The notes under the pieces were generated by a model, which saw only the letters and a program-made list of their open reading frames with translations, ran no database searches and was not told the DNA's origin. This document shows positions 21,205 to 56,809 of a DNA stretch of 64,000 bases, in pieces (the first letter of the stretch is position 1; the number at the start of each line of letters is the position of its first letter). This DNA comes from Streptomyces termitum (GTDB taxonomy: Bacteria; Actinomycetota; Actinomycetes; Streptomycetales; Streptomycetaceae), in the NCBI RefSeq assembly GCF_014650175.1, contig NZ_BMUL01000002.1:563150-627149 (forward strand), given 5' to 3'. A program made the translations under genes and the position numbers.

Positions 21205-22671
21205 TCAGCCGGTTTTCGCGGCCGCGGGGCCGTGCAGCCGGGTCGCCACCCAGGCCCCGGCCGCCGCGACCGCCGCCATGGGCAGGAAGACGGCGGCGAA
21301 GGCGGAGGGATGGGAGGACCCGGCGGCGGCGGCCCCGGCCTCGTGGCCGACCGTGCCGCCGCCGAGGGCGGCGAAGGCCGCGCCGCCCGCCGCGAGCAGC
21401 AGCACGTTGGACAGGCCGTCGGAGATCTGGAGGGCGGCCGAGTTCGCGCCCGCCTCCTCCGGCGGGGACAGCTTCATCAGGAGCACGCTGGTGGAGGCGA
21501 TCACGGCGCCCATGCCGAGGCAGCCGAAGGCCCAGGCGACCGCGACCGTCCAGACCGGCACCGCCGGGATCAGCACGCTCGGCGCGGTGAGGATCGAGAG
21601 GGCGACCAGGCCCATGCCGGCGACGACGAGCCGTTCGCGGTACGGCTCCGTCCACGGCCGCGACTGGATCCAGGATCCAAGCGCCCAGGTGAGGCCGCCC
21701 ATGGCCAGCGACAGGCCGGCGAACGTCGGGCTCAGCCCGCGCTGGGTGACGAGCATCAGCGGCACGAAGGACTCCGCCGCGATGAAGGAACCGGCGGCGA
21801 CACCGCGCAGCAGGATCACCGACGGCAGCCCGCGCGCGGCCCGCACCGTGCCGCGCGGCAGCAGCCCCCGGACCGCCGGCACCAGCAGCGCGGCGCCCGC
21901 GACGGCGGGCAGCAGCGACAGCCAGCGCAGCTCCTGCCCGGCGTACTGGAGCAGCCCGGCGCCCGCCGAGATCGCGAGGGCCAGCAGGATCCGGCGCCGG
22001 TCCCAGGCCGCGACGGGCGCCTCGGGGTCGGCCGGCCCGGAGGCGGTGCGGCGGATCGCGGGCAGCGCGAGGACGAGCGGCAGCACGACGAGGACCGGGA
22101 TGCCGACGAAGACCCACCGCCACCCCAGGTGCTCGGTGATCGTCCCGGAGGCGAGCGGCCCGACCACCGAGGGCACGACCCAGCTCGCCGCGAAGGCCGC
22201 CATGATCGCGGGCCGCAGGTGCTCCTCGTACGCCCGGCTGACCACCACGTACAACGCGACGATCACCAGCCCGCCGCCCAGCCCCTGCACGGCCCGCCCG
22301 AGGATGAACACCCACATCGAGGCGGCGGTCCCCGACAGCAGCAGCCCGACCGCGAAGGCGCTGATGCCCACCGTCAGCGGCGTCAGCGGCCCGTTCCGGT
22401 CGGACCACTGCCCCGCGACGACCATGCCGAAGAGACTCGTCGTGAAGTACGCCGAGAACGCGAAGGCGTACACGGATATCCCGTCCAGCTCCCGCGCCGC
22501 CACCGGCATCGCGGTCCCCACCGCCGTCGCCTCGAAGGCGATCAGCAGCACGACGGAGACGATCCCGACACTGAGCGCCCGGTGCGCGGCGTCCATGACG
22601 GAACCGCGCGGGGGCTCGGGGGGCGGCGGCACGGCGATGCTCTCGGCATCACGGGGTTCGAGGACGCTCAT
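21205..22671 (-). CDS. MFS drug exporter (14-helix DHA2-like)
   Basis: A 488-residue transporter from ATG 22671. Segments include ALSVGIVSVVLLIAFEATAVGTAMPVAARELDG, AYFTTSLFGMVVAGQWSDRNGPLTP (motif A region), ILGRAVQGLGGGLVIVALYVVVSR (the GLGGG helix typical of DHA2 pumps) and WRWVFVGIPVLVVLPLVLAL. It would export hydrophobic drugs or metabolites using the proton gradient. No adjacent regulator was found. An exact 14-base copy of the core of the intergenic tandem repeat lies within it at 21665-21678, encoding part of GSWIQSRPW. Confidence 0.88.
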   Translation of the reverse strand: MSVLEPRDAESIAVPPPPEPPRGSVMDAAHRALSVGIVSVVLLIAFEATAVGTAMPVAARELDGISVYAFAFSAYFTTSLFGMVVAGQWSDRNGPLTPLTVGISAFAVGLLLSGTAASMWVFILGRAVQGLGGGLVIVALYVVVSRAYEEHLRPAIMAAFAASWVVPSVVGPLASGTITEHLGWRWVFVGIPVLVVLPLVLALPAIRRTASGPADPEAPVAAWDRRRILLALAISAGAGLLQYAGQELRWLSLLPAVAGAALLVPAVRGLLPRGTVRAARGLPSVILLRGVAAGSFIAAESFVPLMLVTQRGLSPTFAGLSLAMGGLTWALGSWIQSRPWTEPYRERLVVAGMGLVALSILTAPSVLIPAVPVWTVAVAWAFGCLGMGAVIASTSVLLMKLSPPEEAGANSAALQISDGLSNVLLLAAGGAAFAALGGGTVGHEAGAAAAGSSHPSAFAAVFLPMAAVAAAGAWVATRLHGPAAAKTG

Positions 22672-22910
22672 GGCCCCAGGGTAAGGGTCGTCCCCACAGA
22701 TGACCCCTGTCGCGAGTCCCCTCCCCCTTCCGCCCTTGGTCGTACGCCCCCGGCTACCCGCCCCTGCTCCGGAAGACGGGCTTCCCCTCCGGCCCCGCCC
22801 GACTGTGAACGGTGTGTGGCAGGCGTATTGCAGCTCCGTGGCGCACCTCGGGAATCCCTTGAGCCCCTTCCGTCCGGCTCCTAGTGTCTTTCTTGTCGCC
22901 ACACCGACAT

Positions 22911-22982
22911 GACCGTGTGCCCGAGTGGTTCAGGGGCTCGTCTGCAAAGCGAGTGACGTCGGTTCGAATCCGACCACGGTCT
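22911..22982 (+). tRNA. tRNA-Cys (GCA)
   Basis: The cloverleaf folds by eye: acceptor GACCGTG/CACGGTC (7 bp), D arm CCC/GGG, anticodon arm CTCGT-CTGCAAA-GCGAG with anticodon GCA, T arm GTCGG-TTCGAAT-CCGAC. The discriminator base is U, the known identity base for cysteine tRNAs. CCA is not encoded (CCG follows). Total 72 nt. A hairpin terminator follows after 10 bases. The cassette downstream has lower GC, so this may be an old integration site, but no repeated 3' end was found in the window. Confidence 0.93.
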
Positions 22983-22992
22983 CCGGAGAATC

Positions 22993-23026
22993 GAGTCCCG
23001 CATCCGTCCGCACGGGTGCGGGACTC
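22993..23026 (+). terminator. Terminator of tRNA-Cys
   Basis: 15-bp stem with one mismatch (22993-23007 with 23012-23026), 4-base loop, followed by GTTCTGT. Confidence 0.8.
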
Positions 23027-23058
23027 GTTCTGTCCGGGGCCGTACCACCCATGTGACG

Positions 23059-23103
23059 ACAGGCCGGGTTTCCGAGGCGCTCGGCCTTGGAAACCTGGCC
23101 TGT
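23059..23103 (-). terminator. Terminator of the WXG100-like cassette
   Basis: Arms 23059-23078 and 23083-23103 pair over about 20 bp with two mismatches. It lies 41 bases beyond the stop codon of the lipoprotein gene. Confidence 0.75.
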
Positions 23104-23144
23104 TTCAGCCGGTGAAATCGTCTGTCACCACCCGCCGTCCAGCC

Positions 23145-23789
23145 CTACGCGGCGGGCAGCGGCTTCACCACGGGGTCCCCCTTCAGGGGGTCGCCCTCGC
23201 AGCCGAGCGCGTCGGCGGCCCGGCCCGCCAGGATGTAGAGCAGCTCGATCTGCCGCTTCCTGGCCTCGGTGTCGTTCCGCCGCTCGGAGTTGCTCAGGTT
23301 CGCGAGTTCGACGTGGAACAACATCCTTTGAGAGGCCTCCGCGAGGTCCCCTGGCAGTCGGCACGCCACGGAAAGCTGGGCAAGCCAGTAGGTCGACTCG
23401 ACGTGCACCCCGTTGACGTCGTAACGGGCAATCTTTTCCCGCGCCACTTTGCCCCACTCCAACTCGCCGGGCAAGGCCCATGCGAATTCGACATCCGCGC
23501 CCTTCGAGTTCCGGTCGGGCCGGGGGTCGTAGACACAGGTGTAAAGGGATTCGTCCTTCATCTGACGCAGATGGACGCCAAGGCTCTGCACCAACTCCTC
23601 CGTCGTCCTGTGGATGGTGGTGTAGAACCGATCGGACCGGATCGCCTGCTGTACCGCCTTCTCGCCTTTCGAACCTTTCTCCATGCTACAGAGAGATCTT
23701 GCGGCAGGCTTCGGCTCGGGCTCGGACGTGCAGGACGTGACCAGTGCGGCGAGGACGAGGAGGCCGGTGAATTGTTTGCGCATCGCCAT
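23145..23789 (-). CDS. Cassette lipoprotein of unknown function (214 aa)
   Basis: The N terminus MAMRKQFTGLLVLAALVTSCTSEPEP is a lipoprotein signal with lipobox VTSC, so the mature protein would be anchored to the outer face of the membrane by Cys20. The rest has no recognised domain; it contains three further Cys (ARSLCSMEK, YTCVYDPRP, VACRLPGD) plus LGCEGDP near the end, so disulfides are possible. It starts 2 bases after the stop of the 718-aa gene, hence is translationally linked. Base composition is visibly less GC-rich than neighbours. Probably a partner or immunity-like component of the cassette; that is inference. Confidence 0.8.
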   Translation of the reverse strand: MAMRKQFTGLLVLAALVTSCTSEPEPKPAARSLCSMEKGSKGEKAVQQAIRSDRFYTTIHRTTEELVQSLGVHLRQMKDESLYTCVYDPRPDRNSKGADVEFAWALPGELEWGKVAREKIARYDVNGVHVESTYWLAQLSVACRLPGDLAEASQRMLFHVELANLSNSERRNDTEARKRQIELLYILAGRAADALGCEGDPLKGDPVVKPLPAA

Positions 23790-23791
23790 CC

Positions 23792-25948
23792 TCACTTCGG
23801 TGACTGAAGATGCGCCCTGGCCGCATCCCTGCCACTGGTGAAAGAAGTATTTGCCTCGTTCTTCGATTCCCTGAAGGCATTTTCCTTCTCGATTTCCTCT
23901 CGCTCTCCCCAGTTGTCCATCATCTGGTTGAGACCGTCCGCTCCCCTGCCGTACCCCTCGCTTCCTTCCCGCTTCGCCGTGTCCTCGGCGTCGTCCTTGG
24001 CACTCTGCTCCCATTCGAAGCCGATCGTGTCGATGAGCGAACTGGCCGCCGAGCCCACCACCGGAAGCTCTCCGATGACCCCGTTGACACCGTTGACCGT
24101 GTAATTGGACGTCTGCTCCGCCCACTTCTCCCGGTCGTCCTGCTTGTCGGCGTAGACGTCGGCACCGATTCCGTTGAGCGCGCCCATGGCATGGCCGATG
24201 CCGCTGGCCCGGTTGTTCCAGTCGGCGCTGGAATCGTGCGGGGTCCCCGAGAACGCCAGGGCCTCGTTCAGCACCGACGCGGAGTAGGTGCGCTCCGCTT
24301 CGTGCAGGAGGGAGAAGGCGGGGGCGTCGTCCGCGATGCCCCGCATGACGCGTACGAGGCTGCCCTGCCCCACGGCGAGGTGCGCTTCCTTCCCCGAGCC
24401 GTTGATGGAGTCGCTGCCGCCGACACCGCCGTAGTCCGACTCCTGTCCCTGAAGGATCACATGGGTGTCGGAGACGTAGTCGGCCATCGCCTGCGCCATC
24501 GGCCGGCGCAGGTTCCCCAGCTGCTCCGGGAACTGGTCGCCGCCCATCTCGCTGTCGAGCAGCCGGATCGCGTGGTGCATGACGCGCGCCTGGCCCTCGG
24601 TGTGCGGGCCGGGCGGACCCAGCTTCTCGCCCGGCTCGTGCCCGGTGGCCGCGGCCTGAATGGCCGCGCCGAGACCTCCCGCCCGGGGATCGCCGTCGAG
24701 TTCCCGCAGCGGGCCGTACAGCGGCGCGCTGTAGGAGTAGTCGTCCCACTCGCGCTCGGTCAGCAGGTAGGCGAGGTGGTCGTTCTTGTTCCCCGCGGCG
24801 GCCGGGTCGAGGAAGTACTCGGCCGCCTTCGGGTCCTCGCTCATGGTCTTGAGCAGTGCGTCCAGCGGGTCGACCACGACGTTCGGGCGCTTGGGGTCGT
24901 AGGCGTGCGACCAGTTCGCGTCGCCGTCCTTCTCCGCCTCGATGATGCCGTCGCCCACGTCGTTGAGGAACTGCTTGCCGTAGCCGTCGCCGTTCTCCAT
25001 CAGCGTCGCGAGGATCTGGTATCCGTGCACCGGGAGGAGCTTGTCCAGCGATTCGCCGCCGAAGTCCTTGAGTCCTTCGAGGAACGGCTTGTAGGCGTAG
25101 CTGTTCGGGTCCTGGGTGCCCGAGGCGATCGTCGCGGCGAGGCTCGCGGTGATGGACTCGTAGAGCTTCTTGTCGGCCGCCGAGACGTCGCGGCCGTGGG
25201 CCGCCATGTTCAGCTGGTCGGCGAGCCGCATCGTGCCCTCCGCGCCCAGCGCGTCCAGGTACGCCTCGCTGAAATGCTTGTCGTCGGCGTTCCGGCTCAT
25301 CACCTGCCGGTAACTCTCAAGCTCTTCGGGCGAGGCTTTACCCGAACGGACCTTCTCCGTGAGGGCCAGGGCCTCCACCGCCTCGACGTCGCCGACCGGA
25401 TGGGAGTTGAACCCGAACGGCTGGCTCCCGTCCGCTCCCGAAGCGTTCAGAAGAGCCCGCTTCACGTCTTCGTCGTACTCGTTGACCGCCTTCACCGCGT
25501 TCATGATGGCGCGGGTGTGGGACTGCTCGACGCCGGGGAGGTCCGGGTCGTGGCGAATGGTCTTCGCCGTTTCCGCGTCGACCTTGCTGAAGTCGTAACG
25601 CGCGACGCCGCTCTCCGAGACCTTCATCCCCGCGCCGACGGCGTCCGCGACCGCCGACTTCACCGCCGCCTTGAGTTCGACGAACCTGGCGTGGGCGTCG
25701 AGGAAGAGCGACTCCATGGCGCGTGCTTCCTTCTGCGCGGAGTCGTACTCCTTTCTCGTCACCACGAAGACGTTGAGCGCCGCACCGGCGCTCTCCCCGG
25801 TCCATCCGCTTCCGGTCGAGACGCTCTGCACTTCCTTCTCGAAGATGTCCTCGAGAATCTTGAACTTGGCCGCCATGCTCTTCCAGCCCTCCGCGGCACC
25901 GGTGAGAGCGGAGAAGTCCATTTCCATGATCTGCTGATAGCTCGGCAC
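23792..25948 (-). CDS. Large WXG100-like protein (718 aa), candidate type VII-linked protein
   Basis: Residues ~1-110 form a predicted helical hairpin with a central GSGWTGESAGAA turn, similar to the W-x-G of ESX/WXG100 proteins: MPSYQQIMEMDFSALTGAAEGW, then EYDSAQKEARAMESLFLDAHARFVELKAAVKSAV. The remaining ~600 residues are mostly helical and acidic with no enzyme motif I can name. I recall similar large proteins, several per genome, in Streptomyces, annotated as unknown (possibly DUF6571-like). No signal peptide, so export would need a type VII-like route. It sits between a 143-aa gene (10 bases upstream) and a lipoprotein (2 bases downstream). GC is reduced, especially near its 3' end. Confidence 0.75.
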   Translation of the reverse strand: MPSYQQIMEMDFSALTGAAEGWKSMAAKFKILEDIFEKEVQSVSTGSGWTGESAGAALNVFVVTRKEYDSAQKEARAMESLFLDAHARFVELKAAVKSAVADAVGAGMKVSESGVARYDFSKVDAETAKTIRHDPDLPGVEQSHTRAIMNAVKAVNEYDEDVKRALLNASGADGSQPFGFNSHPVGDVEAVEALALTEKVRSGKASPEELESYRQVMSRNADDKHFSEAYLDALGAEGTMRLADQLNMAAHGRDVSAADKKLYESITASLAATIASGTQDPNSYAYKPFLEGLKDFGGESLDKLLPVHGYQILATLMENGDGYGKQFLNDVGDGIIEAEKDGDANWSHAYDPKRPNVVVDPLDALLKTMSEDPKAAEYFLDPAAAGNKNDHLAYLLTEREWDDYSYSAPLYGPLRELDGDPRAGGLGAAIQAAATGHEPGEKLGPPGPHTEGQARVMHHAIRLLDSEMGGDQFPEQLGNLRRPMAQAMADYVSDTHVILQGQESDYGGVGGSDSINGSGKEAHLAVGQGSLVRVMRGIADDAPAFSLLHEAERTYSASVLNEALAFSGTPHDSSADWNNRASGIGHAMGALNGIGADVYADKQDDREKWAEQTSNYTVNGVNGVIGELPVVGSAASSLIDTIGFEWEQSAKDDAEDTAKREGSEGYGRGADGLNQMMDNWGEREEIEKENAFRESKNEANTSFTSGRDAARAHLQSPK

Positions 25949-25958
25949 GGTTCCCTCC

Positions 25959-26390
25959 CTATCCGTCCAGGCCCGAAAGGCCGGACGGCACGGAGCGGAC
26001 CGTCAATCCCGTCGTGACATCGGCTCCCGTCAGGGTGGTGACCGCGCCACGTAAGCCGGTCTTGTGCGAACTCAGCCGCCCCATCAGCCGCTTCACCTGC
26101 TCGTCCCACTTCTCGTGGGCCTTCGTGATGCCCGTGGCCGTCTCCCAGCCCGTGAAGGCCCTGACGGCCGCGCCGGTCGGCTCGTCGGCGACGTCCGCCG
26201 CCTTCCGCGTCTCCGGTTCCAGCGTGGTCTCGATGGTGTCGGCCGCCTTCTTCTTCCTGGGCGGCACGCTGCCCAGGACACCGCCCCCGCCGGGCCCTCC
26301 GCTGCCGCCGTCCGCCTGGTTCAGCCGCATCCGTGCCGGCTGCTGCTCCGCGGCTTCGGCCTTGAGCTCTTCCCACTCACGCCAGGCCAT
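25959..26390 (-). CDS. First gene of the WXG100-like cassette (143 aa)
   Basis: ATG 26390 is chosen because GGGGG lies about 7 bases upstream. The product begins MAWREWEELKAEAAEQQPARMRLNQ, a start I associate with a recurrent Streptomyces gene placed directly before large WXG100-like proteins. It then has a Gly-rich linker, a basic patch (VPPRKKKAAD) and a helical end with HEKWDEQVKRLMGRLSSHKTGLRGAVTTLTGADV. The last part could be a second WXG100-like helix pair. Spacing of 10 bases to the next gene supports one operon. Function unknown. Confidence 0.72.
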   Translation of the reverse strand: MAWREWEELKAEAAEQQPARMRLNQADGGSGGPGGGGVLGSVPPRKKKAADTIETTLEPETRKAADVADEPTGAAVRAFTGWETATGITKAHEKWDEQVKRLMGRLSSHKTGLRGAVTTLTGADVTTGLTVRSVPSGLSGLDG

Positions 26391-26550
26391 CGCGTACCCC
26401 CGTTCGTCCGGTTCCCGTCGTGCCGTGCACCGTATGACAGCGACGGCCGCCGTGCGGCGCGCGGTTGGCCCGTTCCTTGCGGGGGCGGCGGCACGGCGGG
26501 CGGGGCACGACGAGCGGGCACACCGCACGGCGCCCGACGGGGGCACACGG

Positions 26551-26592
26551 CACGGCCCGGCCCCCGCGCACTCACGTGGGGGCCGGGCCGTG
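26551..26592 (-). terminator. Terminator of the molybdenum hydroxylase operon
   Basis: Perfect 15-bp stem (26551-26565 with 26578-26592), ten bases past the last stop codon. Confidence 0.8.
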
Positions 26593-26601
26593 TGTCCCGG
26601 G

Positions 26602-28926
26602 CTACGGGGCCGCCACCGCCGACTGCGGGCGGATCGGGAGACGGTTGACCGGGCGGCCGGTGGCGGCGCGGACGGCGGCGGCGACGGCGGCGGGCGAGGT
26701 GACGACCGGGACGGCGCTGGCGGCCTTGGCGCCGAAGGGGGCGACGACGTCGCGCTCCTCGACCAGTCTGACGATGCGGATGTCGGGGGCGTCGAGGGAG
26801 GTCGGGAGGGCGTAGCCGGTCAGGTCGGGGTGGCGGACCAGGCCGCGGGCGGTGCGGAGGTTCTCGGTGAGGGCCGCGCCGACGCCCTGCGTGACGCCCG
26901 CCTCGATGCGGGTGGCGAGCTGGGCGGGGTTGAGGATGCGGCCGACGTCCTGGGCGACGGCCATCTCCACGACCCGGATCGCGCCGAGTTCGACGTCGAC
27001 GTCGACGACCGCGCGGATCGCGCAGAAGGCGAGGCCGACGAAGGCGTCGCCCTGGCCGGTGGCGTCGAGCGGCTCGGTGGGGTGCGGGCGGCACTGGGCG
27101 GTGGCCCAGAGCTCCTTGCCCTTCATCTCCTCGGCGACGGTGGTGGAGAGGACGCCGTCGTACGAGGTGATCTTGCCGTCGCTGATCTGGAGGAGTTCGG
27201 TGGACATGCCGAACTTGTGGGCCAGCGGCTGGAGGAGCTGGGTGCGGACCATGCGGGCGGCGCGCTCGACGGCGCCGCCGGAGACCCAGGTGTGCCGGCC
27301 GTGGGTGGCGGCGCCGGCCGGGGGCTGGTCGGTGTCGACGGGGGCCACGTGGACCTCCTCGACGCCGAGGGTCTCCTGGACGACCTGGCGGGCGAGGGTG
27401 GAGAAGCCCGAACCGGTGTCGACGGCCGAGCAGATGACGGTGGCGACGCCGTCGAGGACCCGGACGGTGGCGGTGGAGACCTCGTCGGTGCCCTCGGCGC
27501 CGAGCATGTGGACCATGCCGAGCGCGTAGCCGACGCCCCGCCGCACGGCGCCGGGTTCGCCCGCGCCCTCGGGGCCGCCGGGCAGCAGCCAGTCCTCCTC
27601 CGGGGTGTCCTTGGGGAGGGCGGGCAGCGGGAAGTCCCGTACGGCGGCAAGGAGTTCGGCGACGGGCGCGGGGCAGGTGACGGTCTGGCCGGTGGGCAGC
27701 AGGTCGCCGGTGGAGAGCACGTTGCGCATCCGCAGTTCGGCCGGGTCGACGCCGATCCGGCCTGCGAGCTTGTCCATCTGCGCCTCGTAGGCGGCGCACA
27801 CCTGCATCGCGCCCTCGCCCCGGACGTGCCCGGACGGCGGGTTGTTGGTGCGGACGGCCCAGCCCTCGACGAAGGCGTGCGGGACGACGTACGGGCCGCA
27901 GGCGAAGGCGACGGCGGCGGCGAGGGACTCGCTGGAGGCGTCGGCGTAGGCGCCCGCGTCGAGGAGGATCTGCGCCTCGACCTTGACCAGCCGGCCCTCG
28001 GCGTCCGCGTGGTGGCGGTAGCGCAGCAGGGTGGGGTGGCGGTGGGCGTGGCCGAGGAAGGACTCCTCGCGGGTAGCGGTGAGCTTGACCGGGCAGCCGG
28101 TGCGCAGGGCGAGCAGGCCGAGCGGGATCTGGAAGCCGGGGTCGTCGCGGTCGCCGGTGGCGCCGGGGACGCCGGTGACGACGACCTTGACCTGTTCGGG
28201 CGTCAGGCCGAAGCAGGCGGCGGCGAGGTCGCGGTCGGTGTGCGGGTCGGTGGAGGCGGTGTACAGCTCGACGCCGCCGTCGGGCCGGGGCACGGCGAGT
28301 CCGGCCTCGGCGCCGATGGGGGCGGGGTCCTGGCGGCCGATCCGGTAGAGGCCCTCGACGACGACCTCGCCGGCGGCCTGCGGGTCGCCGAAGCTGAGCG
28401 GGATGTGCCGGATCAGGTTGCCGTCGGGGTGCAGCGGCTCGGCCTCGAACGCCTTCTCCGGGTCGGTGACGGGCTCCAGGAGCTCGTACTCGACGGTGAT
28501 GGCGGCGGTGGCGAGCCGGGCCGTGTCGGGGTGGTCGGCGGCGACGGCGGCGATGGCCTCGCCGTGGTGGCGGACCAGTCCGTCGGCGAAGACGGGCCGG
28601 TCGGCGACCCGGCGGCCGTAGGTGGCGGCGCCGGGCACGTCGGCGGCGGTGACCACGGCCCGGACGCCGGGCATCGCCTCGGCGGCGGAGGTGTCCACGG
28701 AGACGATCCGGGCGTGGGCGTGCGGGGAGCGCAGCAGCGCGGCCCACAGCAGGCCCTCGGCCCACAGGTCGGAGGCGTACGGGAAGGTGCCCTCGGCCTT
28801 GGCGCGGGCGTCGGCCTGCGGGAGGGAGGCGCCGAGGCCGAGGACGGGCGCCTCGGTCTCCGGGGCGGGGCCGGCCGCTTCCGCGAAGGGGAGCGTGGGG
28901 ATGGCGGTCGTCGCGTCGGTGCTCAC
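26602..28926 (-). CDS. Xanthine dehydrogenase-family molybdopterin-binding subunit
   Basis: A 774-residue large subunit from GTG 28926, overlapping the 2Fe-2S gene by 4 bases. The N-terminal a/b hammerhead domain is seen in RAKAEGTFPYASDLWAEGLLWAALLRSPHAHARI. Mo-cofactor regions include VRGEGAMQVCAAYEAQMDKLA, GLAFCAIRAVVDVDVELGAIRVVEMAVAQDVGRILNP and TQGVGAALTE. Near the C terminus PFGAKAASAVPVVTSPAAVAAAVRAATG occupies the place where active xanthine dehydrogenases have a GEP segment carrying the catalytic Glu; no Glu is present there. The substrate may therefore not be a purine. It lacks an adjacent XdhC-type maturation gene. Confidence 0.9.
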   Translation of the reverse strand: MSTDATTAIPTLPFAEAAGPAPETEAPVLGLGASLPQADARAKAEGTFPYASDLWAEGLLWAALLRSPHAHARIVSVDTSAAEAMPGVRAVVTAADVPGAATYGRRVADRPVFADGLVRHHGEAIAAVAADHPDTARLATAAITVEYELLEPVTDPEKAFEAEPLHPDGNLIRHIPLSFGDPQAAGEVVVEGLYRIGRQDPAPIGAEAGLAVPRPDGGVELYTASTDPHTDRDLAAACFGLTPEQVKVVVTGVPGATGDRDDPGFQIPLGLLALRTGCPVKLTATREESFLGHAHRHPTLLRYRHHADAEGRLVKVEAQILLDAGAYADASSESLAAAVAFACGPYVVPHAFVEGWAVRTNNPPSGHVRGEGAMQVCAAYEAQMDKLAGRIGVDPAELRMRNVLSTGDLLPTGQTVTCPAPVAELLAAVRDFPLPALPKDTPEEDWLLPGGPEGAGEPGAVRRGVGYALGMVHMLGAEGTDEVSTATVRVLDGVATVICSAVDTGSGFSTLARQVVQETLGVEEVHVAPVDTDQPPAGAATHGRHTWVSGGAVERAARMVRTQLLQPLAHKFGMSTELLQISDGKITSYDGVLSTTVAEEMKGKELWATAQCRPHPTEPLDATGQGDAFVGLAFCAIRAVVDVDVELGAIRVVEMAVAQDVGRILNPAQLATRIEAGVTQGVGAALTENLRTARGLVRHPDLTGYALPTSLDAPDIRIVRLVEERDVVAPFGAKAASAVPVVTSPAAVAAAVRAATGRPVNRLPIRPQSAVAAP

Positions 28927-51364: not shown

Positions 51365-51380
51365 GCCCACATGGGATGAG

Positions 51381-51746
51381 TGGAGATGGCGGGAATCGAA
51401 CCCGCGTCCAACGGTGCGGAACCAGGGCTTCTCCGTGCGCAGTCTGGTACGAGTTTCTCAGCCCTCCGGATCACCCAGACAAGTCCGGAACGGGCTCAGT
51501 CACTGTTTGATTTCCCTCTTCACCCCGTGACCGGGATCAAGGTTTAGTCCCCTTCATGATGCCAGGATCCGGGTCGGGAACAGCCCCGGGCTGACACTTC
51601 GCAAGTCGCTACTTAGGCAGCGAGGGCGAAGGAATCGCGCTTGGTGTTGGCGATTATTGGTTTCGGCGCGTGGTTAACGAGATCATTGCCGCTTCCTCGA
51701 CACGCTTCCCCTGCTTCGACATCCGCTGTCGAAACCGATCATCCCC
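51381..51746 (-). ncRNA. ssrA: tmRNA
   Basis: The 5' end GGGGATGATCGGTTTCGACA (from 51746) and the 3' T-arm TTCGATTCCCGCCATCTCCA (ending 51381) are standard tmRNA ends; GGGGAT pairs with ATCTCC. The tag reading frame (51651 down to 51613) encodes ANTKRDSFALAA followed by TAA, with the AA end recognised by ClpXP-type proteases. CCA is not encoded. tmRNA rescues ribosomes stalled on broken mRNA with SmpB, whose gene is 81 bases upstream. Length about 366 nt. Confidence 0.97.
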
Positions 51747-55825: not shown

Positions 55826-56809
55826 TCAGGCGGCGGCGCGCCCGCCGGCGACCAGGCGCGGCAGGAAGCGGAAGCCCACGCCACCGGCGATCATGGTGGC
55901 GGCGCCGATGATCAGGAACGAGGTCTCGGCCGCACCGGTCTCGGCGAGCTCCTCCTTGGCCTGGCCCTGCTGCACCGGCTGCGAGCCGGCCTGCTGGGTG
56001 TCGGTGTTGCTGCCCGTCGTGCCGGTCGAACCGGTGGATCCGGTCGAACCGCCGCACTCGACGCCGTCGGCGTTGACGACGCAGTCGTCGGGGTTGCCGC
56101 CGTTGGTCGAGGAACCGGTGGTGCCGGTCGTGCCCGTGGTACCGGTGGTACCCGTGGTACCCGTGGTACCCGTGGTACCCGTGGTACCCGTGGTGCCGGT
56201 GGTACCCGTGGTGCCGGTCGTGCCCGTGGTACCGGTCGTGCCGGTGGAGCCGGAGCCGTTGCCGTTCCCGTTGGAACCGTTCCCGTTGCCGGTCTCACCG
56301 GTCGTCGGGCCACCGTTACCGGTCTCACCCGTGGTCGGACCGCCGTTACCGGTCTCACCGGTCGTCGGGCCACCATTGCCGGTCTCACCCGTGGTCGGAC
56401 CGCCATTGCCGGTCTCGCCCGTGGTCGGGCCACCGTTGCCGGTCTCACCGGTCGTCGGGCCACCGTTACCGGTCTCGCCCGTGGTCGGACCGCCGTTACC
56501 AGTCTCACCGGTCGTCGGGCCACCATTGCCGGTCTCGCCCGTGGTCGGACCGCCGTTGCCGGTCTCACCGGTCGTCGGACCGCCGTTGCCGGTCTCACCC
56601 GTGGTCGGGTTGCAGCCCAGCGGGTCGGTCTCGCAGGGGTCCTCCTCGCCCGGACCCTCTTCGCCCGGCAGTTCCCCGCTCAGGGTGCCGATCGTGGGCT
56701 CGCCCGCGTTGACCGCCTGGGCGGCGCCGGCCGCGGTCAGGGACGCACCGGCGATGATCACGGCGCCGGCCGCGACTCGCGCCAGACGGACTCGCGTCTT
56801 CTTCGTCAT
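55826..56809 (-). CDS. Cell-wall-anchored (LAETG) repeat protein
   Basis: 327 residues. Signal peptide [32 protein letters not shown]. Residues ~68-177 are eleven tandem copies of [10 protein letters not shown]. Then a Gly/Asn/Ser linker and about 14-15 TTG units (~191-235). Two Cys pairs flank the repeats ([10 protein letters not shown] and [12 protein letters not shown]). The C terminus is a sortase signal: LAETGA, one hydrophobic helix ([16 protein letters not shown]) and a basic end. LAxTG is the class E sortase motif of actinobacteria. The repeats probably project a stalk through the wall; no binding domain is seen. Confidence 0.88.
56114..56610. repeat. 30-bp and 9-bp tandem repeats inside the LAETG gene
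   Basis: Eleven 30-bp units (56289-56610) alternate between two synonymous versions (CACCGGTCGTCGG and CCCGTGGTCGG cores), so the higher-order period is mostly 60 bp. A separate 9-bp tract of GGTACCCGT-type units covers about 56114-56250. Such arrays change copy number easily. Confidence 0.95.

Follow-up and report, generated by a model that had tools for sequence, protein, structure and literature searches.

Substrates of type VII secretion systems (T7SS) are described as bearing a two-part signal, in which one partner contributes WxG and the other YxxxD/E, or FxxxD in the case of Lap1 (PMC9600955), and polymorphic T7SS toxins with WXG or LXG N-termini are known and, in the available part of one survey, are listed also for actinobacteria (PMC3482391). 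Here we analyse a cassette of three genes, g1-g2-g3, located on the minus strand at 23145-26390 of a 64,000-nt stretch of Streptomyces termitum (contig NZ_BMUL01000002.1, positions 563,150-627,149), to which we refer as the window and on which the coordinates are based. In our probable reading g2 is a T7SS effector, g1 the partner that is targeted with it, and g3 a lipoprotein that confers immunity at the cell surface. A first-pass annotation of the sequence had proposed an exported effector or surface protein accompanied by a chaperone-like and a membrane partner, perhaps a self/non-self or immunity module, and comparative evidence now largely supports it.

The cassette resembles the LXG toxins of Firmicutes T7SSb with their partners Lap1/Lap2 in its helical N-terminal targeting module (~180-200 amino acids, aa, as described for those systems), a small neighbouring gene whose product has a motif of FxxxD type (in the cassette a candidate), variable C-termini and a downstream cognate immunity gene, here putative (PMC9600955, PMC5555719). 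In contrast to them, as far as the available text of those reports goes, it belongs to Streptomyces, the EccC and EccD found in these genomes are T7SSa parts, a single small partner gene replaces the two, module and tip are separated by a long helical body, and the putative immunity protein is a surface lipoprotein. A second comparison is offered by TspA of Staphylococcus aureus: directed to the outside of the cell, its C-terminus causes membrane depolarisation, against which the membrane-bound TsaI protects (PMC7456083). That pair likewise combines a T7SS substrate, a polymorphic C-terminus, a membrane-bound immunity protein and several immunity copies (PMC7456083), although g3 is a lipoprotein, the activity of the g2 tip is putative and the likeness drawn here is one of description. 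The third is AaEAS of Amycolatopsis azurea, a T7SS-linked exported alarmone synthetase of LXG type whose C-terminus inhibits growth, where an actinobacterial toxin gene is likewise flanked by a gene for a targeting factor on one side and a small one, putatively for immunity, on the other (PMC12691689). It has a different toxin domain, and the available text of that report describes it without a solenoid body or a lipoprotein partner. The proposed pair of helical hairpins also recalls PE-PPE and EspC-type actinobacterial T7SS substrates, although the window proteins score below the cut-offs of these families. A literature search (most subscription papers and preprints lying outside its scope) found no paper naming DUF6571, the family to which g2 is related, and none recognisable by its title or the start of its abstract as describing the cassette, the nearest being the alarmone synthetase work (PMC12691689).

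Probable targeting module and link to type VII secretion

The first-pass annotation had described three tightly spaced minus-strand genes, and the coordinates agree, with intergenic gaps of only 10 and 2 bases. The first, g1 (25959-26390), encodes a 143-aa protein starting MAWREWEELK, with a leader, a Gly-rich linker and a helical-hairpin-like part. It is followed by g2 (23792-25948, GTG start codon), encoding a 718-aa putative effector related to DUF6571, and by g3 (23145-23789), encoding a 214-aa lipoprotein. For DUF6571 (PF20211), g2 reached 29.3 bits against a cut-off of 27 in the genome search, and hmmscan of the protein listed no match; the family was matched by five of 21 g2 relatives (best 6.9e-11), and eight of the 21 showed weak PPE rows (best 9.1e-5), g2 itself remaining under the Pfam threshold for PPE (14.6 vs. 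26).

The model of g2 (40 sequences in the alignment, mean predicted local distance difference test score, pLDDT, 82.9; predicted template modelling score, pTM, 0.79) begins with a putative T7SS targeting module at aa 1-170 (25439-25948), made of a hairpin (13-45 and 52-105) and a further helix (137-170). The WXG-like hairpin that had been read from the letters alone is thus recovered in the model, with W49-T-G51 (25796-25804) sitting between its two helices. A W.G motif at aa 41-60 is found in 39/40 long and 14/14 short g2 relatives (53/54 altogether, the one miss being L044), and the module is common to proteins with other C-termini. After it come a helical, solenoid-like body (aa 187-600, 24149-25390) and a hypervariable tip (aa 601-718, 23795-24148), which is the putative toxic and specificity part.

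On the side of g1, the candidate export arm is L120-T-G-A-D124 (26019-26033), near the end of the apparent second hairpin helix. This site carries D or E in all 30 relatives and fits [LFYIH]xxx[DE] in 28 of them (misses L037 and L063), the background frequency of the pattern over all positions being 0.035. The strict YxxxD/E-type arm is less general, with Y or F as first residue in 9/30 g1 and L, H or I in the others, the window having LxxxD. L23, A75 and W95 are invariant among the 30 aligned g1 sequences, and over 18 loci the identity of g1 tracks that of g2 aa 1-100 (r 0.94) but not that of the tip given the rest (-0.17). The leader that precedes the hairpin (26247-26390) has a nearly invariant W6, an invariant L23 and a nearly invariant N24, with an 'MRLN' element at aa 21-24 and the Gly-rich linker following it; some relatives appear without the leader in the codon-usage gene calls.

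Neighbourhoods and co-occurrence point to the secretion machinery. Among the paralogous cassettes listed, four (L038, L043, L044 and L046) adjoin a gene with both EccC domains, and the one in S. termitum itself (L038) then carries a WXG100 gene (66.1 bits, cut-off 44.85), a second one under the cut-off and a mycosin-like protease (270.9 vs. a cut-off of 278.75). As read by hand, at least 14 of the 61 genomes of the genus (G000, G003, G006, G013, G019, G020, G029, G030, G034, G035, G045, G052, G055 and G056) have EccD and a g2-family match 4.5-5.7 kb apart, the matches of G003, G030 and G056 being fragments. EccD was found in 55/61 of these genomes, and g2-family matches in 48 of the 55 vs. one of the six without EccD (Fisher p 7e-4, kinship ignored). 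In the EccD-less genomes with a g2 match (G010, G091 and G093, the last two from genera other than Streptomyces) every match starts at profile position 180 or later, so the hairpin module is absent. We consider it very probable, judging from these comparisons, that g1 and g2 are targeted to the T7SS.

Family searches of the window cassette proteins gave nothing above cut-off and recognised no toxin domain in g2 itself, there was no Pfam row for LXG in g2, and DUF3130/DUF3958 (Lap1/Lap2) were absent from the 30 g1 relatives. Profile searches of the cassette proteins against solved structures returned nothing useful, the g1 alignment reaching EsxA weakly (E 0.54-0.59), and Foldseek had zero matches at E ≤ 0.001 for the g2 and g3 models. 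A phage-defence reading suggested by PADLOC was dropped, as it consisted of a single row of 12.6 bits.

Exchangeable C-termini and the variable lipoprotein

The N-terminus of g2 precedes at least four kinds of continuation, namely DUF6571-type bodies, unnamed C-termini, Abhydrolase_8 or Ntox44. Abhydrolase_8 was seen in L072 and in 8/10 further proteins scanned, and a g1 match adjoins five of eight Abhydrolase_8 proteins; the codon-usage caller employed for the relatives missed g2 in 5/20 stretches of this survey. Ntox44 comes from four plasmid records in which a g2-like N-terminus is joined to a C-terminus annotated as polymorphic toxin type 44. In the two of these examined, the domain scores 74.5 and 72.8 bits (cut-off 24), with a g1 homologue directly upstream (g1 profile 1.5e-36 and 5e-37) bearing the motif F-x-x-x-D, and a small hydrophobic protein downstream. 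Long g2 forms have no recognised toxin domain. One short form, with the shared C-terminus 'VYDRYNWD/VWDRYNWD' (L039, L052, L059, L066, L068, L069 and L162), did not reach the cut-off of any Pfam family in the members scanned, and some of its members are followed by a membrane-anchored or lipoprotein-like gene. Two others (L055:7115-8091 and L056:3765-4771) have Gly-rich C-termini followed by small, apparently soluble genes, which may possibly provide cytoplasmic immunity; the two in L055 are alike ('MGLFDKLTG' and 'MGRLVDKYMG').

A rough survey of the genes downstream of 40 long and 14 short cassettes, in which a 15-residue mean hydropathy of at least 1.5 was taken as a hydrophobic N-terminus, called such an N-terminus in 23 of the long cassettes and 4/14 of the short ones. 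Of the remaining long cassettes, ten have a window-type g3 with a late called start, the lipobox being present in the g3 alignment, and seven were ambiguous. Pfam recognised none of ten genes lying downstream of paralogous cassettes.

The first-pass annotation had called the third gene a lipoprotein, and this has held up well. The lipobox VTSC (23730-23741), at the end of a hydrophobic N-terminus (...LVTSC), contains Cys20, which is invariant in 22/22 g3 together with Cys34, Cys85, Cys143 and Cys197, and these five cysteines would fit a placement of g3 outside the cytoplasm. The g3 model (pLDDT 87.9, pTM 0.81) aligns with Mog1p (Z 6.3, root-mean-square deviation 4.8, 132 residues), TiME (Z 5.9; 4.5, 127), SciW (5.6; 3.5, 105) and LpqN (4.8; 3.6, 109). 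All these Z values are below 8 and may reflect a common arrangement alone, the best Foldseek E value (0.077) was to another fold, and family and profile searches gave no sequence match between g3 and Mog1/PsbP-like proteins. The likeness to SciW is of interest because the structure of that protein was solved bound to the transmembrane domain of an effector.

Within the genus, window-type g3 was found in 21 of 392 genomes, and the order g1-g2-g3 is kept in 18 of these 21, many of them at other sites. The other three are G414, which has a broken g2, and G317 and G424, where g3 lacks adjacent g1 and g2. To follow how the parts of the cassette vary, 18 loci were compared (17 of the 21 g3 genomes plus L120), leaving out L109 and L113 (no g2), L114, whose g2 is broken and whose genome is 55% complete, and the distant L115 (E 8.8e-4), with second g3 copies entered only in a variant run. 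It is evident that g3 is the fastest-evolving part, with a mean pairwise identity of 0.35, followed by the g2 tip (0.55), g1 (0.59) and the six earlier g2 bins (0.64-0.71). Eight locus pairs were compared along the cassette, and the sharpest change was seen between L101 and L102, where the upstream gene (98%), g1 (97%) and the downstream gene (99%) are nearly identical, g2 goes from 98/93/84% up to aa 540 to 67/75/54% thereafter, and g3 is 38% identical (48% vs. the second copy). The window and L120 behave similarly, with g2 at 80/84/81% falling to 60/47/35% and g3 at 31%; the pair L107/L110 is less sharp (g2 86/86/79/92/88/58%, g3 54%), and the window and L099 differ to a similar extent throughout g2 (82/76/83/77/78/67%), g3 being 64% identical.

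The lipoprotein gene also occurs in duplicate and without its partners. Two copies stand in tandem in G266 and in G379 (54% and 39% alike), and ahead of the second copy of G379 there remain the latter half of a g1 and some 50 residues from the start of a g2 that has lost its bulk. The genes on either side of the lone g3 of G317 are those that frame the complete cassette in L101 and L102, and when the 13-kb stretches L113 and L109 were searched with profiles in six frames, g3 was found and, within those stretches, neither g1 nor g2. There are thus three places (G317, G424 and G379) with g3 but no intact adjacent g2. Protection kept after loss of the toxin is a usual mark of immunity genes, and g3 carries the genomic signature of one, being directly downstream, diversifying with the end of g2, duplicated and orphaned. 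On these genomic grounds g2 is likely to be an antibacterial toxin and g3 its immunity protein.

Proposed working and rival readings

From the above we infer the pairing of g1 with g2, export, toxicity and neutralisation. The WxG hairpin at the N-terminus of g2 would pair with g1 as an elongated helical bundle carrying the two-part T7SS signal, WxG on g2 and [L/F/Y]xxx[D/E] on g1, which the ATPase EccC would recognise. Once g2 had left the cell its helical body would serve as a stalk, and the last ~120 residues, with their hydrophobic Gly-rich stretch and variable end, would attack a neighbouring cell. The site of attack would most likely be the outer face of the membrane, which is the simplest guess because g3 is surface-anchored, and g3, held outside, would bind the tip and protect the producer and its kin. 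The most hydrophobic stretch of g2 (aa 621-639, VNGVIGELPVVGSAASSLI, 24032-24088) belongs to this tip, and the hydropathy maximum falls within the last 150 aa in 34/40 long relatives. That the tip actually inserts into the membrane is, in our view, a tentative suggestion and rather doubtful.

Several observations weigh against a toxin with its immunity protein exported in this way. The tip is modelled at low confidence and its hydropathy is moderate (mean 1.31), and family and solved-structure profile searches matched neither body nor tip of g2 to a known toxin. No WXG100 or EspC model was above cut-off in the 30 g1 relatives scanned, EspC being reached by a single distant plasmid homologue (27.2 vs. 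23.5), and seven of the 55 EccD-bearing genomes have no g2-family match. The covariation is modest as well, as over the 18 loci the partial correlation between tip and g3 given the rest of g2 was 0.24 (as high in 25/2000 permutations, and in 38/2000 when the other g3 copies were entered), smaller than that between the rest and g3 given the tip (0.51, 0/2000), so common descent explains much of it.

The best surviving alternative is that g2 is not a toxin but a stalk-like surface or developmental protein exported by the T7SS and held by the lipoprotein g3, its tip varying because it is exposed. The T7SS linkage, the surface-anchored type of g3 and the long g2 forms without recognised toxin domain would all suit such a protein. 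Nevertheless, Ntox44 occurs joined to this N-terminus behind the same g1, the retention of g3 without g2 would be left unexplained by an anchoring role, and a rare and variable g3 (21/392 genomes) is unlike a developmental part, which makes this explanation unlikely. A shade less probable is that the body of g2 is an exported enzyme acting on cell wall or lipid, with g3 as inhibitor and the tip as its mere contact site. Four polar positions of the body that hardly vary among relatives (D360, H449, D494 and D541) and the Abhydrolase_8 of related effectors speak for it; but Pfam, structure profiles, Foldseek and structure alignment found no catalytic motif or enzyme fold in g2, and the aligned body resembles a helical repeat arrangement, its best Z (9.4) being at the level that helical models may reach by chance without kinship. 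Finally, a chance gathering of three genes with no relation to one another, next to a tRNA that serves as insertion site, might account for the atypical composition and the changing contents of the interval described below, but this is highly improbable, since the gene order recurs across genomes and sites and g1 identity tracks the g2 N-terminus; the conserved order excludes chance assembly.

Genomic setting and wider meaning

The cassette is less GC-rich than its surroundings, as the first-pass annotation had noticed, with 66.7% GC vs. 73.6% in the window, and g3, g2 and g1 rank first, third and fourth lowest in GC at third codon positions (GC3) among the 46 window genes of at least 300 bp. 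That annotation had made its proposal depend on a hairpin at the g2 N-terminus, co-occurrence of the three genes and a distinct composition; the hairpin was modelled, the genes co-occur in 18/21 genomes and the composition differs from that of the window. It had also placed the start of the cassette right after a tRNA, which does not hold: tRNA-Cys (22911-22984), a landmark outside the system, is on the plus strand and faces the 3′ end of g3, 160 bp away, so the cassette does not begin there. The second lowest GC3 (0.851) belongs to a gene outside the cassette (55826-56809), and the window also has a transfer-messenger RNA gene at 51380-51746 with the tag ANTKRDSFALAA.

The tRNA-Cys lies in an interval (21205-28926; loci L121-L150) between two genes which we take, from their sequences, to be a major facilitator superfamily (MFS) gene and a xanthine dehydrogenase (XDH)-like gene, and the gene content of this interval differs between genomes. 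The MFS gene was found in 38 genomes, of which 30 other than that of the window were fetched; four of the 30 (L121, L127, L140 and L146) have a g2-family match in the 8 kb upstream of this gene and L132 has a fragment, and in L129 and L135 tRNA and XDH are present with zero genes called between them. Compared with the window, L099 (the closest of the relatives fetched) and L115 have their cassette on the opposite side of the tRNA. We treat the interval as a variable site; as for integration at the tRNA, no search was aimed at integrases.

With g2 as a single query (E ≤ 1e-5) 41/100 related genomes gave a match, and with the g2 profile (E ≤ 1e-6) 53/100 did so, including 49 of the 61 same-genus genomes. 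S. termitum has further g2-family members on contigs C3, C8, C14 and C4, plus a more distant one on C3, and at L156:2470-4703 (C3) a g1-like gene accompanies a 597-aa g2-like protein with Abhydrolase_8. Among the plasmid records with a g2 match 19/20 are Streptomyces and 9/20 span 80% or more of g2 at a single site; both named relatives are Streptomyces too. One locus, L119, by its length the same contig as L099, was not counted. In L041 (6830-7464, G046) the cassette adjoins two small genes that resemble a VapBC-type toxin-antitoxin pair.

A broader reading of these data is conceivable, although we judge it somewhat short of probable. DUF6571 proteins would form a common arsenal of Streptomyces, helical T7SS toxins of great length whose tip, hydrophobic, hypervariable and ~120 residues long, acts from outside; every toxin would be matched by a surface lipoprotein, possibly Mog1/PsbP-like, recognising the tip only; and mycelia would tell kin from non-kin by means of the T7SS, orphan lipoproteins recording past conflicts. 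It would give the DUF6571 family, so far without function, a testable one, and its reach may be gauged from the g2 family being present in 49/61 and EccD in 55/61 same-genus genomes. If true, the tip and g3 would be a compact case for the joint change of toxin and immunity specificities, and Streptomyces, known for small-molecule warfare, would also fight with T7SS protein toxins.

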